DNA of 64,000 nucleotides from Falsirhodobacter algicola (GTDB lineage Bacteria; Pseudomonadota; Alphaproteobacteria; Rhodobacterales; Rhodobacteraceae): contig NZ_CP047289.1 of assembly GCF_018279165.1 (NCBI RefSeq), positions 434,001 through 498,000 of the forward strand, read 5' to 3'. Below, in pieces: positions 46,795 through 57,413 of the stretch. A model generated the notes under the pieces. The model saw only the letters and a list, made by a program, of their open reading frames with translations. It searched no databases and was not told the DNA's origin. Position 1 is the stretch's first letter. Each line of letters starts with the position of its first letter. Made by a program: the position numbers and the translations under genes.

Positions 46795-46864
46795 GCGACG
46801 GCGCTTGACCGGCGCGGCAGACCGCTCACATGATGACACTGCTCTTGGCAAAGAGAGATGCATC

Positions 46865-49243
46865 GTGACCGCAACTACCCTTCAGGCCGACATTCTCCGA
46901 CATCTGTCCTTTACCGTCGGCAAGGATCCCCAGAACGCCACCCTGTTCGATTGGCGCATGGCCCTGTCCCATGCCTGCCGCGACCGCATCATGGAGCCTT
47001 GGTTCGCGGCCACCCGCCGCACTTGGGCCGAGGATCGCAAGCGCGTCTATTACCTGTCGATGGAGTTTCTGATCGGGCGCCTGCTGGAGGACGCCACGAT
47101 CAACCTCGGCCTGCACGAAGAGGCCGAGGCCGCGATGCGTGCCTTGGGCCAAGATTTCCGCGACGTGGTGGGGGATGAGCCCGACGCCGCGCTGGGCAAT
47201 GGCGGGCTGGGACGGCTGGCGGCGTGCTTCATGGAATCCATGGCGACGCTGGGCTGTCCGTCCTATGGCTACGGCATCCGCTACGAACACGGGCTGTTCC
47301 GCCAAAGTTTCAATGCCGGGCGGCAGATCGAGGCGCCGGAGACGTGGCTCGACCATCCCCATCCGTGGGAATTCGACCGCCCCGAGGCGCAGTACGTCAT
47401 CCCCTTCAAGGGCCATGTGGAAACGCGCAACGGCGCCGCCGTCTGGGTGCCGGGCGAATCGGTCTTTGCGCAGGCGCATGACACGCCCGTCATCGGCTGG
47501 CAGGCGCGCTGGGCCAATACCCTGCGCCTGTGGTCGGCGCGCCCGACCGATCCCTTCGATCTGGAGCGGTTCAATCACGGCGATTACACCGCCGCCGCCC
47601 AGCCCGAAACGCTGGCCCGCACCCTTAGCCGCGTTCTCTACCCGGACGACACCACCTATCAGGGCAAGGAACTGCGCCTGAAGCAGGAATACTTCCTGAC
47701 CTCGGCCGCGCTGCAGGACATTCTGCGCCGCTATCTGCAATCCCATGCCGATCTGCGCGCGCTGCCCAAGCATGTCGCGATCCAGATGAACGACACCCAT
47801 CCCGCCATCGCCGGGGCCGAACTGATCCGCCTTCTGGTCGATGATCACCGGATGGAGTTCCGCGAGGCGCTGCACATCGCCCAGCGCTGCCTCGGCTATA
47901 CCAACCACACCCTTCTGCCCGAGGCTTTGGAGCGGTGGTCCACCTACACCTTCGGCACCGTCCTGCCGCGCCATATGCAGATCGTGGAGCAGATCGACGG
48001 CTGGCACCTTGAGGAGCATCGCGCCCGCCCGCATTACGTCGGCATCGTGAAGCATCACGAGGTGCGGATGGGGGAGCTGGCCTTCATCACCTCGCACCGG
48101 GTGAACGGGGTTTCGGCGCTGCATACCGATCTGGTGCGCAAGAACCTGTTCCCCGAACTCAACGCCTTGCACCCCGACCGCATCATCAACCAGACGAACG
48201 GCGTGACGCCGCGCCGCTGGCTGAAGATGTGCAACCCGGCGCTGTCGGGCCTGATCACCGACACGATCGGCAGCGGCTGGGAGGCGGATCTCGACCGGCT
48301 GAAGGCGCTGGAGCCGCATGTGACGGACCCCGCCTTCCTTCGGGCCTTCGGAGAGGCCAAGCGCACGAACAAGGTGCGCCTTGCCGCATGGCTTCAGCGC
48401 ACGACGGGCGTCGTCGTCGATCCCGACGCGCTGTTCGATGTGCAGGTGAAGCGCATCCACGAATACAAGCGCCAGCTTCTGAACATCCTCGAAACGGTGG
48501 CCCGCTGGAAGGCGATCCGGGAAAATCCCGATGCCGGATGGGTACCGCGCGTGAAGATCTTCGCCGGGAAATCCGCCCCCGGCTATGCCGTCGCCAAGGA
48601 GATCATCCATCTGATCAATGACGTGGCCGCGGTCGTGAACAACGATCCCGTCACGGGCGATCTGCTGAAGGTGGTGTATCCGGCGAACTACAACGTCTCC
48701 ATGGCCGAACGGCTGGTGCCTGCGGCGGACCTGTCCGAGCAGATCTCCACCGCCGGTAAGGAGGCGTCGGGCACGGGGAACATGAAGTTCATGATCAACG
48801 GCGCCCCGACGATCGGAACGCTGGACGGCGCCAATGTGGAGATCCTTCAGGAGGTGGGGGCGGACAACTTCTTCCTCTTCGGTCTGACCGCCGAAGAGGT
48901 GGTGAAACGCCGCGAGGATCCCGAACATGCCCGCCACGCGATCGAGGCCAGCCAGCCGCTTCTGGACGTGCTGCAGATGATCGCCGAGGGGCGATTCTCG
49001 CCCGATGAGCCGGAGCGATATCACCAGCTGGTTCACCGCGTGTGGAACCATGATTATTTCCTGGTCGCATCGGACTTCGACTCCTACATCCAAGCGCAGG
49101 GGGAGGTGGACCGCGCCTTCTCTGATCGCGACCGCTGGCTGAAGATGGCGGCGCTGAACACGGCCCGCTCGGGCTATTTCAGCTCCGACCGCACGATCCG
49201 CGGTTACATGAACGACATCTGGGACATCGACCCGGCTATATGA
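46865..49243 (+). CDS. glgP: Glycogen/maltodextrin phosphorylase
   Basis: Releases glucose-1-phosphate from alpha-1,4-glucan. The 792-residue protein (family length about 800) carries the PLP-lysine in GTGNMKFMINGAPTIG and the GLGRLAACFMESMATLG and QMNDTHPAIA segments. Start chosen at GTG 46865, preceded by AAAGAGAG; a TTG further upstream is not supported. It heads the glgP-glgB-(small ORF)-glgA-glgX-pgm run on one strand with short gaps. Confidence 0.95.
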   Translation: MTATTLQADILRHLSFTVGKDPQNATLFDWRMALSHACRDRIMEPWFAATRRTWAEDRKRVYYLSMEFLIGRLLEDATINLGLHEEAEAAMRALGQDFRDVVGDEPDAALGNGGLGRLAACFMESMATLGCPSYGYGIRYEHGLFRQSFNAGRQIEAPETWLDHPHPWEFDRPEAQYVIPFKGHVETRNGAAVWVPGESVFAQAHDTPVIGWQARWANTLRLWSARPTDPFDLERFNHGDYTAAAQPETLARTLSRVLYPDDTTYQGKELRLKQEYFLTSAALQDILRRYLQSHADLRALPKHVAIQMNDTHPAIAGAELIRLLVDDHRMEFREALHIAQRCLGYTNHTLLPEALERWSTYTFGTVLPRHMQIVEQIDGWHLEEHRARPHYVGIVKHHEVRMGELAFITSHRVNGVSALHTDLVRKNLFPELNALHPDRIINQTNGVTPRRWLKMCNPALSGLITDTIGSGWEADLDRLKALEPHVTDPAFLRAFGEAKRTNKVRLAAWLQRTTGVVVDPDALFDVQVKRIHEYKRQLLNILETVARWKAIRENPDAGWVPRVKIFAGKSAPGYAVAKEIIHLINDVAAVVNNDPVTGDLLKVVYPANYNVSMAERLVPAADLSEQISTAGKEASGTGNMKFMINGAPTIGTLDGANVEILQEVGADNFFLFGLTAEEVVKRREDPEHARHAIEASQPLLDVLQMIAEGRFSPDEPERYHQLVHRVWNHDYFLVASDFDSYIQAQGEVDRAFSDRDRWLKMAALNTARSGYFSSDRTIRGYMNDIWDIDPAI

Positions 49244-49255
49244 GGTGAACCGCGC

Positions 49256-51430
49256 GTGACGGGGGCAAGGGCGGCGGCGAGGATCGATCCGCAGGCGGCG
49301 CAGGCGATCTGCGAAGGACGGCACGGCGATCCGTTCGCGTTCCTCGGGCCGCATCCGGCCGGCAAGGAATGGCGCGTGACCGTCTGGCAGCCCGGAGCCG
49401 AGAAGGTCTGGCTGAAACCGGGCGGCGCTACGACCGAGGTTCCGGGATTCCCCGGCCTCTTCGTCGGCAAGACCAAATCCCGCGAGTATCGCATCCGCGC
49501 GGTGGCCGGGGACGCCGAATGGATCGTGGACGATCCCTACCGCTTCGGCCCCGTCCTTGGCGAGATCGACGAATACCTTCTGGGCGAGGGGACGCATCAT
49601 CAACTCTGGGACGCGCTGGGCGCGCATCCCATGGAGCATGAGGGCGTCGGGGGCACGCATTTCGCCGTCTGGGCGCCGAACGCGCAGCGCGTTTCGGTCA
49701 TCGGCGGGTTCAACTTCTGGGACGGGCGCCGCCACCCGATGCGCCAGCGCGGTGCCACCGGCGTGTGGGAGATCTTCGTGCCGGGGGTCGGCGTCGGGGA
49801 AAGCTATAAGTACGAGATCCGCACCGCGGCCGGGGAGATCCTGCCCCACAAGGCCGATCCCGTCGGCTTCGGCTCGGAACATGCCCCGGCGACGGCCTCG
49901 GTCGTACGCGATCTCGGTGGCCCGCTCTGGAGCGATGACGAGTGGATGGAGCGGCGGCACCGCGAGAACGGCGTCGATGCCCCCATCTCCATCTACGAGG
50001 TGCATCTGGGCAGTTGGCGGCGCGCGCCGGGCGACCGGATGCTGTCCTATGTCGAACTGGCCGATCAGCTGGTGGATTACGCCCATGACATGGGGTTCAC
50101 CCATCTCGAATTCATGCCGGTTTCGGAATACCCGTTCGATGGCAGCTGGGGCTATCAGCCGATCGGCCTCTTCGCCCCGACCATCCGCCACGGCACCCCG
50201 GACGAGTTCCGCGCCCTGATCGATGCGGCGCATCGCAAGGGGCTTGGGGTCATCCTCGATTGGGTGCCGGGGCATTTCCCGTCGGATATTCACGGGCTGG
50301 GCCGGTTCGATGGAACGCCGCTCTATGAGCATGGCGACCCGCGCGAGGGGTTCCATCAGGACTGGAACACCCTGATCTACAATTACGGCCGCCGCGAGGT
50401 GAAGAACTACCTCACCGCCAACGCGCTCTATTGGCTCGAGGAATATCACGTCGACGGACTGCGTGTGGATGCCGTGGCCTCCATGCTCTACCGCGATTAT
50501 TCGCGGGCCGATGGGGAATGGGTGCCCAATATCCATGGCGGGCGCGAGAACCTCGAGGCGATCGCCATGCTGCGCGACATGAACGTCGCGGCCTATGGCA
50601 CCTATCCTGGGATCATGACGGCGGCGGAGGAATCCACGTCCTTCCCCGGCGTGTCGCGGCCCGTCGATCAGGGGGGCCTTGGGTTCGGGTTCAAATGGAA
50701 CATGGGCTGGATGAACGACACCCTGTCCTACATCCAGAAGGACCCGATCCACCGCAAATACCACCATCACCAGATGACGTTCGGCTTGCATTACGCATGG
50801 TCGGAGAATTTCATCCTGCCGATCAGCCATGACGAGGTGGTGCACGGCAAGGGCAGCATGATCGCCAAGATGCCGGGCGAGGGGGCGGAGAAGTTCGCCA
50901 ACCTGCGCGCCTATTACGGCTTCATGTGGACCCATCCGGGCAAGAAGCTGCTGTTCATGGGCTGCGAATTCGCGCAGGGGCGCGAATGGACCCATCAGCA
51001 GAGCCTCGATTGGCACCAGCTCGATATTCCCGAACATCGGGGGGTGCAGCGGCTGATCCGGGATCTGAACACGCTTTATCGTTCGAACGGCGCGCTGCAT
51101 CACCATGATTCGCGTCCCGACGGGTTCGAATGGATCGAGGCGGGCGATGCCGAGGCGTCGGTCTTCGTGTTCCTGCGCCGGGGCGCTGCGGGCGATCCGC
51201 CGATCGTCGTGGCCGTGAACATGACGCCCGTGGACCGGCCCTATCGCATCGGGCTGCCCTCGGGCGGCACATGGGCCGAGGTGATGAACACCGATGCCGC
51301 CATCTATGGCGGGCAGGATCGCGGCAATTTCGGCCGCATCCACGCCGAGGACCAGCCATGGCACGGTCGGCCCCATTCGGCCGAGATACGACTGCCGCCT
51401 TTGTCGGTCGTGGTGTTCCGACAGGACTGA
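49256..51430 (+). CDS. glgB: 1,4-alpha-glucan branching enzyme
   Basis: Introduces alpha-1,6 branches into glycogen. The 724-residue GH13 protein has N-terminal beta-sandwich domains ([21 protein letters not shown]), catalytic Asp in [18 protein letters not shown], Glu in [12 protein letters not shown], and [13 protein letters not shown]. Start is GTG with GAGGTGA nine bases before. It follows glgP after 12 bases. Confidence 0.96.
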
Positions 51431-51465
51431 ACATACGCGCCGGGGAGGGCGCGAAGGAGGATACG

Positions 51466-51552
51466 TTGCAGGCCGACCCCAGTTTTCGCTACCCGCCGGA
51501 CCGTTTTCGCATAGATTGCAAGACAGGCCTTGGCTTCATCGAGGAGTTGTAA
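51466..51552 (+). CDS. 28-codon ORF in the expected glgC position
   Basis: A short ORF with TTG start and a strong Shine-Dalgarno (AAGGAGG, 5 bases before). The peptide begins MQADPSFRYPPDRFRIDC and ends GLGFIEEL, followed by TAA five bases before the glgA ATG. I do not recognise it and it does not resemble the N- or C-terminus of GlgC. It might be a coupling peptide for glgA or leftover sequence. Confidence 0.4.
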   Translation: MQADPSFRYPPDRFRIDCKTGLGFIEEL

Positions 51553-51557
51553 GCGAG

Positions 51558-52991
51558 ATGGCTGGTTCGATCCGTGTGCTCTCCGTCGTATCCGAATGCG
51601 TGCCGCTTTTGAAAACAGGCGGCCTTGCGGACGTGGCCGGTGCGCTGCCTGCGGCGCTGGCGACGCGGGACGTGCACATGCGCGTTCTGATGCCGGCCTA
51701 TCGCAGCATCCGCTGGCGGCTGGAGGGGATGACCGAGGTCTTTTACGAAGAGGATCTGTTCGGCGGCGCGGGCCGCGTCTTTGCCGGCACGATCGGCGGC
51801 ATCGACATGCTGCTGCTGGATGCGCCGCATCTCTATGACCGCGAGGGCGGCCCCTATTCCGGCCCGTGGGGCGATTGGGACGACAACCCGCAGCGTTTTG
51901 CCGCGCTGTCATGGGTGGCGGCGCGGATCTGCCGGCAGGGGCTGCGTGGGGGGTGGCGGCCGCAGGTGATGCACGCGCATGATTGGCAGGCGGGCTTTGC
52001 CCCGGCCTATCTGGCCTTCGGCGGGCCGACGGATGTTTCCAGCATCATCACCATCCACAACATCGCCTTCCAAGGCTGGGCGCATGTCGATCTTCTGGAC
52101 ACGCTGCGCCTGCCGTCATGGGAGTTTCATCCCGGATCGCTGGAATATTATGGCGGGCTGTCCAGCCTGAAGGCCGGGCTGGTGACCGCCGACCGGATCA
52201 CGACCGTATCCCCGAACTATGCGATCGAGTTGATGCGCCCGGAATACGGCATGGGGCTGCAAGGGGTCATGGCGTCGCGGGCCGACAGCGTGTCGGGTAT
52301 CCTGAACGGCGTCGATACCGAGGTCTGGTCCCCCGAGGCGGAGGAACGCCCTTACAGCTTCGATCATTTGCGCGGCAAGATGGAGAACCGCCGCGTCCTC
52401 TGCGAAGCCTTCGATCTGGAGGTGCCGGGCCCACTGGTGATCGTCGTCAGCCGGATGACCCATCAGAAGGGTATCGATCTTCTGCCCGAGGTGCTGCCCG
52501 AATTCATCGAGCATGGCGGCGGTGTCGCGATCCTCGGTGCGGGCGATAGCGGGCTGGAAAGCGCCATGCGCGCGCTGGAGCTGCGCTATCCCGACCGGGT
52601 GGGCGTGCGTGTGGGCTATGACGAAGGGCTGAGCCATCTGATGTTCTCGGGCGGGGATGCGGTGCTCGTCCCCTCGCGGTTCGAGCCTTGTGGGCTGACG
52701 CAGATGTACGGGCTGCGCTACGGCACGCTGCCGGTGGTGGCGCAGGTGGGCGGTCTGGCCGACAGCGTGATCAACGTGAACCCGGCCTCCATGACGGCGG
52801 GGGTGGCCACCGGCTTTACCTTCACGCCGACGACCGCCGATGCGATGTCGGGGGCGCTGCGCCGCCTGCTGCAACTGTGGAACGATCGGGACGGCTGGGC
52901 GCAGGTGCAGCGGAACGCGATGCGCCATCCGGTCGGCTGGCAGGCCTCGGCCGAGGCGTACGAGGCGCTGTATCGCCAGATCCTGCGATGA
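51558..52991 (+). CDS. glgA: Glycogen synthase (ADP-glucose type)
   Basis: Extends alpha-1,4-glucan from ADP-glucose. The 477-residue GT5 enzyme has the KTGGLADVAGALPAALA donor loop near the N-terminus, HAHDWQAGFAP, GILNGVDTEVW and the catalytic Glu region SRFEPCGLTQMYGLRYG. Its substrate normally comes from GlgC, which is missing between glgB and glgA here. The stop overlaps the glgX start (ATGA). Confidence 0.96.
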   Translation: MAGSIRVLSVVSECVPLLKTGGLADVAGALPAALATRDVHMRVLMPAYRSIRWRLEGMTEVFYEEDLFGGAGRVFAGTIGGIDMLLLDAPHLYDREGGPYSGPWGDWDDNPQRFAALSWVAARICRQGLRGGWRPQVMHAHDWQAGFAPAYLAFGGPTDVSSIITIHNIAFQGWAHVDLLDTLRLPSWEFHPGSLEYYGGLSSLKAGLVTADRITTVSPNYAIELMRPEYGMGLQGVMASRADSVSGILNGVDTEVWSPEAEERPYSFDHLRGKMENRRVLCEAFDLEVPGPLVIVVSRMTHQKGIDLLPEVLPEFIEHGGGVAILGAGDSGLESAMRALELRYPDRVGVRVGYDEGLSHLMFSGGDAVLVPSRFEPCGLTQMYGLRYGTLPVVAQVGGLADSVINVNPASMTAGVATGFTFTPTTADAMSGALRRLLQLWNDRDGWAQVQRNAMRHPVGWQASAEAYEALYRQILR

Positions 52992-54877
52992 CGCTGGGGG
53001 CGGTGCTTCTGAAGGACGGGACCCGCTTCGCCGTCCATTCCGCCGATGCCGAGGCGGTGGAGCTGTGCCTCTTCGATCCCGAGCGTCGCATTCCGATGCT
53101 GCGGGAGGGCGATGTCTGGACCGTGACGGTGGAGGGCGTGGGCGAGGGGGCGCAGTACGGCTTTCGCGCCCATGGCCCCTTCGATCCGGCGCAGGGGCTG
53201 TGGTTCGATGGCGCGAAGCTGCTGCTCGATCCCTATGCCCGGCAACTGACGGCGCCGGTGCGCTGGTCCCCCGCGCTGCAGCCCGGCACGGCCGAGGATT
53301 CGGCCCGTGCGCTGCCGCGCTGCATCGTGACCAAGGTCGAACCCGTCCCGGTGAAGCGCCCCCGCACCCCATGGCCCGAAACCGTGATCTACGAGGCGCA
53401 TGTCCGCGGGCTTACGATGCAGCACCCCAAGATCCCCGAGGGGCAGCGCGGCACGTTCCGCGGCCTCGCCTCGCGGCAGGTGCTGCGGCATCTGTCGCGC
53501 CTTGGGGTGACGGCGATCGAGCTTTTGCCCGTGCAGGCCTTCATCGACGACCGTTTCGCCGCCGAACGGGGGCTGACGAATTACTGGGGCTATCAGCCGG
53601 TCGCGCTGTGTGCGCCGCATCCGGCCTATGGCACACCGGACGATTTCCGCGCCATGGTGCGGAAGTTCCACAAGGCCGGCATCGAGGTGATCCTCGATAT
53701 CGTGCTGAACCACACGGGCGAGGGCGATGCGCATGGCCCGTCCGTGTCGCTGCGCGGGTTGGACAATCGGGGCTATTACCGGCTGCGGGACGGGCATTAT
53801 CTGGACGATGCGGGCACGGGCAACACGCTGGATGCGACGCGTCCGGCGGTGCAGCGCCTGTTCATGGACACGCTGCGGCATTGGGCGGCGCAGGGGGTGG
53901 ATGGGTTCCGCTTCGATCTTGCTACGACGCTCGGCCGCGGGGCGGAGGGGTTCAGCCCGCGCGCGGCGATCTTCGACATGATCCGGCAGGACCCGCAGCT
54001 GCGCGATCTGAAACTGATCGCCGAGCCGTGGGATATCGGGCCGGGCGGCTATCAGCTTGGCCAGTTCCCCGCGCCCTTCGCCGAATGGAACGACCGTTTC
54101 CGCGACGATCTACGCCGTTTCTGGCGCGGAGAGGCGGTGGCGGGCGCGGTGGCGGCCCGCATGGCCGGTTCGGCCGAGATGTTCGACCATGACCGCCGCC
54201 CGGCTTGGACCTCGGTCAATTTCCTGACGGCGCATGATGGGTTCACCCTGATGGATGTGGTGCAATACGCCCACCGCCACAATGAGGCCAATGGCGAGGA
54301 TGGCCGCGACGGCCATGGCGAGAATCATTCCGACAACATGGGCCATGAGGGCCCCCATCCCGATCTCGAGGCTACGCGGGCGCTGCGCCGCCGGGGCCTG
54401 ATGGCGAGCCTTCTGCTGGCGCAGGGCACCCCGATGCTGCTGGCCGGGGATGAGATGGGCAACAGCCAAGGCGGCAACAACAACACCTATGCGCAGGATA
54501 ACGAGGTGGGCTGGGTCGCGTGGCGCGATGACGATCTTGCCCCCTTCGTCGCCCGTCTGATCGCACTGCGCCGCTCGCTTCCGCCGCTGCGGCAGCGGGC
54601 GTTCTGGGGGGATAAGGATGTCGTCTGGTACCTGCCCGACGGCCGCATCCCCGCCCCGGAGGATTGGGCCGGGATGACCGCGCTCTGCATGGAGCTTCGC
54701 TTCGAGGGTGGGGCGGCCTTCGTCGTGCTGAACCCCGGCCATGCCGTTCCGCTGAACCTTCCGGCGGGGCGAAACTGGCACTGCGTTCTCGACAGCACGC
54801 AGCCTGCCGCTGATCCGCCGATCTGGGGGCTTGAAGCCCCCGCCCATTCCGTGCTCGTCTTTCGGCACACCGACTAG
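52988..54877 (+). CDS. glgX: Glycogen debranching enzyme
   Basis: Hydrolyses alpha-1,6 branches of limit dextrin. The 629-residue GH13 protein has an N-terminal CBM48-like part (FAVHSADAEAVELCLFDP), catalytic Asp in GVDGFRFDLATTLGR, Glu in LKLIAEPWDIGPGGYQ and Asp in FLTAHDGFTLMDVV. It is somewhat shorter than many GlgX proteins (about 650-700) but has all core motifs. Coupled to glgA. Confidence 0.95.
   Translation: MTLGAVLLKDGTRFAVHSADAEAVELCLFDPERRIPMLREGDVWTVTVEGVGEGAQYGFRAHGPFDPAQGLWFDGAKLLLDPYARQLTAPVRWSPALQPGTAEDSARALPRCIVTKVEPVPVKRPRTPWPETVIYEAHVRGLTMQHPKIPEGQRGTFRGLASRQVLRHLSRLGVTAIELLPVQAFIDDRFAAERGLTNYWGYQPVALCAPHPAYGTPDDFRAMVRKFHKAGIEVILDIVLNHTGEGDAHGPSVSLRGLDNRGYYRLRDGHYLDDAGTGNTLDATRPAVQRLFMDTLRHWAAQGVDGFRFDLATTLGRGAEGFSPRAAIFDMIRQDPQLRDLKLIAEPWDIGPGGYQLGQFPAPFAEWNDRFRDDLRRFWRGEAVAGAVAARMAGSAEMFDHDRRPAWTSVNFLTAHDGFTLMDVVQYAHRHNEANGEDGRDGHGENHSDNMGHEGPHPDLEATRALRRRGLMASLLLAQGTPMLLAGDEMGNSQGGNNNTYAQDNEVGWVAWRDDDLAPFVARLIALRRSLPPLRQRAFWGDKDVVWYLPDGRIPAPEDWAGMTALCMELRFEGGAAFVVLNPGHAVPLNLPAGRNWHCVLDSTQPAADPPIWGLEAPAHSVLVFRHTD

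Positions 54878-57413
<2,536 letters not shown>

Follow-up and report, generated by a model that had tools for sequence, protein, structure and literature searches.

According to textbooks, bacteria control their glycogen synthesis at AGPase, the enzyme encoded by glgC. The glycogen cluster of Falsirhodobacter algicola, from which this gene is missing, therefore raises the question of where its glycogen synthase obtains ADP-glucose and whether a short open reading frame found in place of glgC has any part in it. In the window, i.e., the whole stretch of 64,000 nucleotides that was analysed, five glycogen genes lie on the plus strand and each of them scores above its NCBIfam cut-off: glgP for glycogen phosphorylase (46805..49243, start codon uncertain; TIGR02093, 1062.6 bits, cut-off 552.9), glgB for branching enzyme (49256..51430; NF003811, 1002.3 bits, cut-off 741), glgA for glycogen synthase of the ADP-glucose type (51558..52991; TIGR02095, 486.1 bits, cut-off 328.45, and NF001899, 623.8, cut-off 459), the first copy of glgX for debranching enzyme (52988..54877; TIGR02100, 776.5 bits, cut-off 640.9) and pgm for phosphoglucomutase (54887..56506; NF005737, 932.8 bits, cut-off 378). 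The TGA stop codon of glgB occupies positions 51428-51430 and the ATG of glgA positions 51558-51560, and since the plus-strand gap between them (51431..51557) is just 127 bases long, glgC cannot fit there. The sequence-only reading was right about this spacing and about the absence of glgC from the cluster; at the same place two sister species, G002 and G006, carry a canonical glgC.

That reading had also offered relocation of glgC as an explanation, and this was not borne out. The genome of the species (G000; 2,779,574 bases, 99.91% complete, 6 contigs) was searched throughout with TIGR02091, the NCBIfam GlgC equivalog model with a cut-off of 424.9 bits, and none of the four matches in the whole genome exceeds the cut-off. 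The best one (259.3 bits, G000:C1:2267021-2267806) lies inside an open gene of 406 residues, referred to below as glgC2, while the other three score 20.7-33.3 bits, and the two of them that were inspected fall in ORFs read as other nucleotidyltransferases. The only strong match is thus a diverged paralogue, and it is not a relocated glgC because both glgC-bearing sisters have it as well. As judged from these searches, glgC seems not to have moved.

Loss of glgC in the genus and the family

Canonical glgC above the cut-off is present in two of the seven Falsirhodobacter genomes (G002 and G006), where it lies between glgB and glgA and the distance between the two genes is 1404 bases. The other five genomes have GlgC2 and weak matches with no canonical glgC, and their glgB-glgA gaps are 17 (G001), 25 (G003), 26 (G005), 93 (G004) and 127 bases (G000). 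In a draw of 149 genomes from the family, with GlgA counted at E 1e-60 or better, 70 genomes have the synthase, 69 of them above the cut-off. Canonical glgC exceeds its cut-off in 67 genomes of the draw and is found in pieces in two more, which were counted as glgC-bearing: G028, an 85%-complete draft with glgA also in pieces, and G074, a 76%-complete draft with the two pieces of glgC on two contigs. A glgC match adjoins glgA on the same contig and strand, with 94-235 bases between the match ends, in 69 of the 70 glgA genomes, and the genome studied here is the sole one in which it does not, which implies that the loss is specific and not search noise. No glgC loss in another genus was found among these 70 genomes. 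In the remaining 79 of the 149 no match to GlgA reaches E 1e-60, and the pathway seems to be missing from roughly half of the genera sampled (some of the drafts are incomplete).

By genome comparison, the difference between this species with its four sisters and the two glgC-bearing species is a loss, i.e., the deletion of canonical glgC, which had stood between glgB and glgA. A single deletion in the common ancestor of the five Falsirhodobacter species would be the simplest course. It fits the GlgA identities, the species without glgC sharing 79-90% with one another and 72-75% with the glgC-bearing pair, as well as the grouping of the five in the GlgC2 tree (support 99, quick method).

The paralogue GlgC2 as a candidate source of ADP-glucose

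The glgC2 gene is located outside the window, on the minus strand at G000:C1:2266625-2267842, in a treY-glgC2-glgX2 cluster. GlgC2 was found in all seven Falsirhodobacter genomes and, since these include both glgC-bearing sisters, it is probably older than the glgC loss. In the family draw it is present in 6 of 149 genomes when the class is defined as TIGR02091 matches of 225-272 bits, weaker matches of 75-124 bits in G025, G078, G082, G092 and G143 being left out. In a wider draw, at least 10 of 394 genomes have it at E 1e-96; this is a lower bound, as at most four candidates were scored per genome and the known carrier G120 (E 6.4e-77 against a small set) was missed. Of eight other GlgC2 genomes that were checked, seven have canonical glgC above the cut-off and in the eighth, G028, the gene is fragmented and contains one internal TGA; G120 has canonical glgC above the cut-off as well. 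In the other genera checked GlgC2 is thus accompanied by canonical GlgC and need not supply glycogen synthesis alone. At G028:C24:11115-13851 both glgC and glgA are in two pieces beside an intact GlgC2, owing to either decay or assembly error.

The neighbourhood of glgC2 connects it with debranching and trehalose synthesis. At all 12 loci glgX2 lies directly 3' of glgC2, in most of them with the two genes overlapping or abutting, and treY lies 5' of glgC2 in all seven Falsirhodobacter loci (TreY 625.9 bits and GlgX2 962.1 bits at L051). Upstream of glgC2 in five other genera treY was not found within about 1.6 kb (G120) or 7-9 kb (the others). TreZ is above its cut-off in all seven Falsirhodobacter genomes, with treZ outside the treY-glgC2-glgX2 cluster, so that treY, treZ and a debranching enzyme, the components of the TreX-TreY-TreZ trehalose route, are all present.

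GlgC2 resembles the GlgC enzymes described by TIGR02091, such as those of E. coli (5L6S) and Agrobacterium tumefaciens (5W5R), aligning over residues 11-390 of 406 with a phmmer E of 4.5e-72 to 5l6s. An AlphaFold2 model of GlgC2 from Falsirhodobacter sp. alg1 is of moderate confidence (pLDDT 72.6, pTM 0.71, residues 276-320 below 50), and the 50 Foldseek matches listed for it, with TM 0.69-0.77, belong to AGPase of E. coli or of A. tumefaciens. GlgC2 differs from these enzymes by its TIGR02091 score of 268.3 bits, which is below the cut-off of 424.9 and counts against the explanation that we prefer (a control from a sister species, L005, scores 495.6 bits), and by its place in the phylogeny. 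A tree of 124 proteins puts GlgC2 on a branch of its own, apart from all canonical GlgC with support of 100; its branches are very long and some were flagged unsafe. Among the matches listed in a broader contig search, all except L070 group with canonical GlgC in the tree. The same tree contains three canonical glgC sequences with odd placement: those from the records titled Brevibacterium (MAG) (L087) and Leucobacter weissii (L105) fall inside a Paracoccaceae-rich clade and that from the record titled Alistipes (MAG) (L104) among Burkholderiales-like sequences, likely because of contamination or mis-binning and possibly by transfer.

When 12 GlgC2 were compared with 111 canonical sequences in E. 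coli numbering, R32, K42, Y114, D142, E194, K195, S212, W274 and D276, which we take to be the catalytic and substrate residues of E. coli GlgC, were found to be the same in every sequence of both sets. In contrast, W113 and R40, both invariant in the 111 canonical sequences, are replaced, the former by G in 12 of 12 GlgC2 and the latter by E (9), D (2) or T (1), and R386, an arginine in 81 of the 111 canonical sequences, is P in all 12. K39 is K in none and R in four of the 12, compared with K in 17 and R in 63 of the 111, and R130 is uninformative because it is not conserved among canonical sequences either. Two residues retained by every one of the 12 GlgC2 count against loss of control, namely R52, a residue of the effector pocket, and Q74, which acts together with W113 in switching on the E. 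coli enzyme; of the trigger pair of E. coli-type AGPase, GlgC2 therefore has Q74 and lacks W113. D119, invariant in the 111 canonical sequences, is A in nine and D in three GlgC2, and this counts against the preferred explanation. Canonical GlgC has 142 near-invariant positions; all 12 GlgC2 share the canonical residue at 56 of these and none does at 34, so the activity and the substrate could differ. In addition, 17 E. coli positions, including 263-266 and 341-346, have no counterpart in any of the 12.

In E. coli, the Q74A and W113A enzymes are insensitive to fructose 1,6-bisphosphate, either mutation abolishing activation (PMC3691274, in excerpt), and W113A is described as activator-insensitive with its nucleotide selectivity lost (PMC5474683, in excerpt); Lys39 and Arg130 are named as allosteric site residues in a part of PMC11046441. 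GlgC2 is thus altered at the residue of a known control-blind mutant (W113A there, G here). By analogy with these published mutants, GlgC2 probably does not respond to fructose-1,6-bisphosphate and may discriminate less strictly between nucleotides, the suggestion of lost control coming from the replacement of W113, R40 and R386 while the assigned catalytic residues are kept.

Selection appears to have maintained both proteins. Comparing the five species without glgC pair by pair gives a dN/dS of 0.17-0.34 for GlgC2 and 0.075-0.193 for GlgA, and with all pairs included the ranges are 0.08-0.45 and 0.06-0.27, respectively; judged by these ratios, GlgC2 is under purifying selection that is somewhat less strict than that on GlgA. 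Since selection still acts on GlgA, which its model assigns to the ADP-glucose type, GlgC2 is the simplest source of the GlgA substrate. We consider it probable that glgC was deleted once and that GlgA is now supplied by GlgC2, an enzyme that probably escapes control by fructose-1,6-bisphosphate, the short reading frame in the spacer playing no role. According to this scenario, the ancestor would have had both enzymes, with canonical GlgC serving storage and GlgC2, together with GlgX2 and TreY, tied to debranching and trehalose. Canonical glgC would then have been deleted between glgB and glgA with retention of glgP, glgB, glgA, glgX and pgm, which would have left GlgC2 as the sole strong GlgC homologue, feeding ADP-glucose to GlgA. 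That GlgC2 makes the ADP-glucose used by GlgA is, from the genomes compared, the most likely reading.

A broader proposal can be put forward more tentatively, and we would not yet bet on it: GlgC2 may represent a natural class of AGPase uncoupled from fructose-1,6-bisphosphate and relaxed in its nucleotide choice, which once stood beside GlgC in a debranching/trehalose operon and later became the sole glycogen supplier in one Falsirhodobacter lineage, flux control having moved off the AGPase step. If so, a lineage that has dispensed with the regulated enzyme is a natural experiment on the need for AGPase control, and GlgC2 is a ready-made candidate for a possibly unregulated AGPase.

The main rival explanation is that GlgA switched to UDP-glucose supplied by GalU, as in Pseudomonas aeruginosa, with GlgC2 otherwise employed in the trehalose cluster. 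P. aeruginosa is like F. algicola in having glgA without canonical glgC together with the TreY-TreZ route, and an excerpt of PMC11046441 states that strain PAO1 has no GlgC, that its glgA is in a treY-treZ operon and that its GlgA is specific for UDP-glucose, which is the donor used. Unlike in P. aeruginosa, glgA has remained here among its usual neighbours glgP, glgB, glgX and pgm, and the genome has a paralogue of GlgC. The presence of treY and treZ in the genus and of a galU-like gene, read as such from its sequence, at G000:C1:1382153 would suit a switch of donor. Against it, GlgA is above the cut-off of the ADP-glucose-type model, by which donor use is only predicted, and among the 37 fixed differences (of 477 positions) between GlgA of glgC-less species and of the two glgC-bearing sisters none touches the GYDEGLSH motif, the tyrosine of which aligns with an E. 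coli GlgA tyrosine that touches the adenine. On balance, we regard the switch as unlikely and supply by GlgC2 as the better account.

The residual spacer and its short reading frame

The gap between glgB and glgA contains a Shine-Dalgarno-like AAGGAGG (51454..51460, plus strand) located five bases 5' of a TTG at 51466, which opens 28 codons on the same strand (51466..51552) for the peptide LQADPSFRYPPDRFRIDCKTGLGFIEEL and is closed by a TAA at 51550-51552, five bases before glgA. These coordinates had been given correctly, and the frame had been proposed to replace glgC and, as one possibility, to couple glgA translation. The notion of replacement is not supported, as the frame is absent from the gaps of all four glgC-less sisters, has no detectable glgC origin and has no full-length relative: a comparison of the gap with seven Falsirhodobacter genomes gave matches of about 16-32 bases at most.

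Descent of the frame from glgC, suggested by a resemblance to the GlgC C-terminus (DP..RFR..G), was rejected by shuffling. With seven GlgC proteins as targets, between 45 and 438 of 500 shuffled peptides reach the score of the real one; against the C-terminal stretch of 34 residues, 911 of 1000 shuffles are as good; and when the gap DNA was compared with the glgC regions of G002 and G006, 264 and 87 of 300 shuffles, respectively, were as good. The possibility that the gap is a moved or inserted piece was also rejected, the best non-self match being an exact one of only 21 bases (window 51521-51541 to G001:C4:110955-110975, E 6e-4) that is probably due to chance. In G001 these 21 bases lie inside an opposite-strand ORF, read as esterase/tannase-like, about 590 bases upstream of a GlgE match. 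The gap also showed no sign of a promoter, a terminator or an RNA element: an Rfam search of 49000-53500 gave zero matches above gathering scores, no promoter- or terminator-like sites were found in 51200-51800, and the RNA fold of 51431-51580 has a z-score of 0.79.

It is conceivable that the 28 codons are a translated leader by which translation of glgA is coupled or adjusted in F. algicola, and such a leader would be compatible with supply of ADP-glucose by GlgC2. The placement of AAGGAGG and of the stop codon, each five bases from the start codon that follows it, speaks for a leader, and so do dinucleotide shuffles of the gap: among 2000 of them, 51 have an ORF of at least 15 codons with a Shine-Dalgarno match of at least 6 bases, 11 have a match of at least 7, and 6 combine a match of at least 7 with a stop within the gap. 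This signal is uncommon for a single gap, yet it was chosen by eye out of the 64-kb window. Its absence from the gaps of the four sisters and from anything related beyond the short matches mentioned above argues against a leader, as does the fact that the frame is open upstream into glgB, forming a 140-aa ORF (51130-51552), so that 28 stop-free codons come easily. We therefore consider a leader distinctly improbable. From the comparison with sister species, the frame is most likely private to the residual spacer of F. algicola, without a role in the pathway, and probably incidental.

Fate of the pathway and related systems

Another way to account for the deletion is that glycogen is no longer built and that glgP, glgB, glgA and glgX are kept for turnover of maltodextrin or for trehalose made from another source. 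An alpha-amylase-family gene downstream of pgm and ORFs upstream of glgP on the opposite strand, read from sequence as putative sugar ABC permeases, would agree with it. The purifying selection on GlgA and GlgC2 in the five glgC-less species does not, and we give this possibility little credence. That glgC is present and was missed through an assembly gap is hardly credible: the genomes are split into several contigs (6 for F. algicola), but the five without glgC are 98-100% complete and glgB and glgA lie on one contig across the site in all of them.

Loss of glgC with retention of glgA is already known. Species of Pseudomonas, Azotobacter and Xanthomonas keep glgA-type pathway genes without glgC, as here, and a part of PMC4301808 describes homologues of glgC as wholly absent there, whereas a diverged GlgC paralogue remains in Falsirhodobacter. 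In the chlamydial families Waddliaceae and Criblamydiaceae, glgC is likewise deleted from the glg genes and GlgE takes over (PMC7935935, in excerpt), whereas no GlgE domain was found in F. algicola, which has the GlgC paralogue. Two AGPase genes, glgC1 and glgC2, are reported for Vibrio cholerae (excerpt of PMC11046441) and a glgC2 is named in Edwardsiella (excerpt of PMC4301808); these excerpts describe no loss of the main copy, and the likeness to GlgC2 of Falsirhodobacter is by description only. In the open-access literature searched, no title or abstract start describes glgC loss or a GlgC2 paralogue in Falsirhodobacter.

The suggestion that glucan is made by another route, if GlgE is meant, found no support in the genome of F. 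algicola, where the GlgE N-terminal domain PF11896 is unmatched and all four TreS matches are below the cut-off; a GlgE route was rejected for this species. PF11896 is absent from five of the seven Falsirhodobacter genomes (G000, G003, G004, G005 and G006) and present in G001 and G002, which are also the only ones of the seven with TreS above the cut-off. In both, the GlgE domain is near this TreS (L154, G001:C4:106000-122000, and L155, G002:C48:24000-40000), and of these two species G001 has lost glgC and G002 has kept it.
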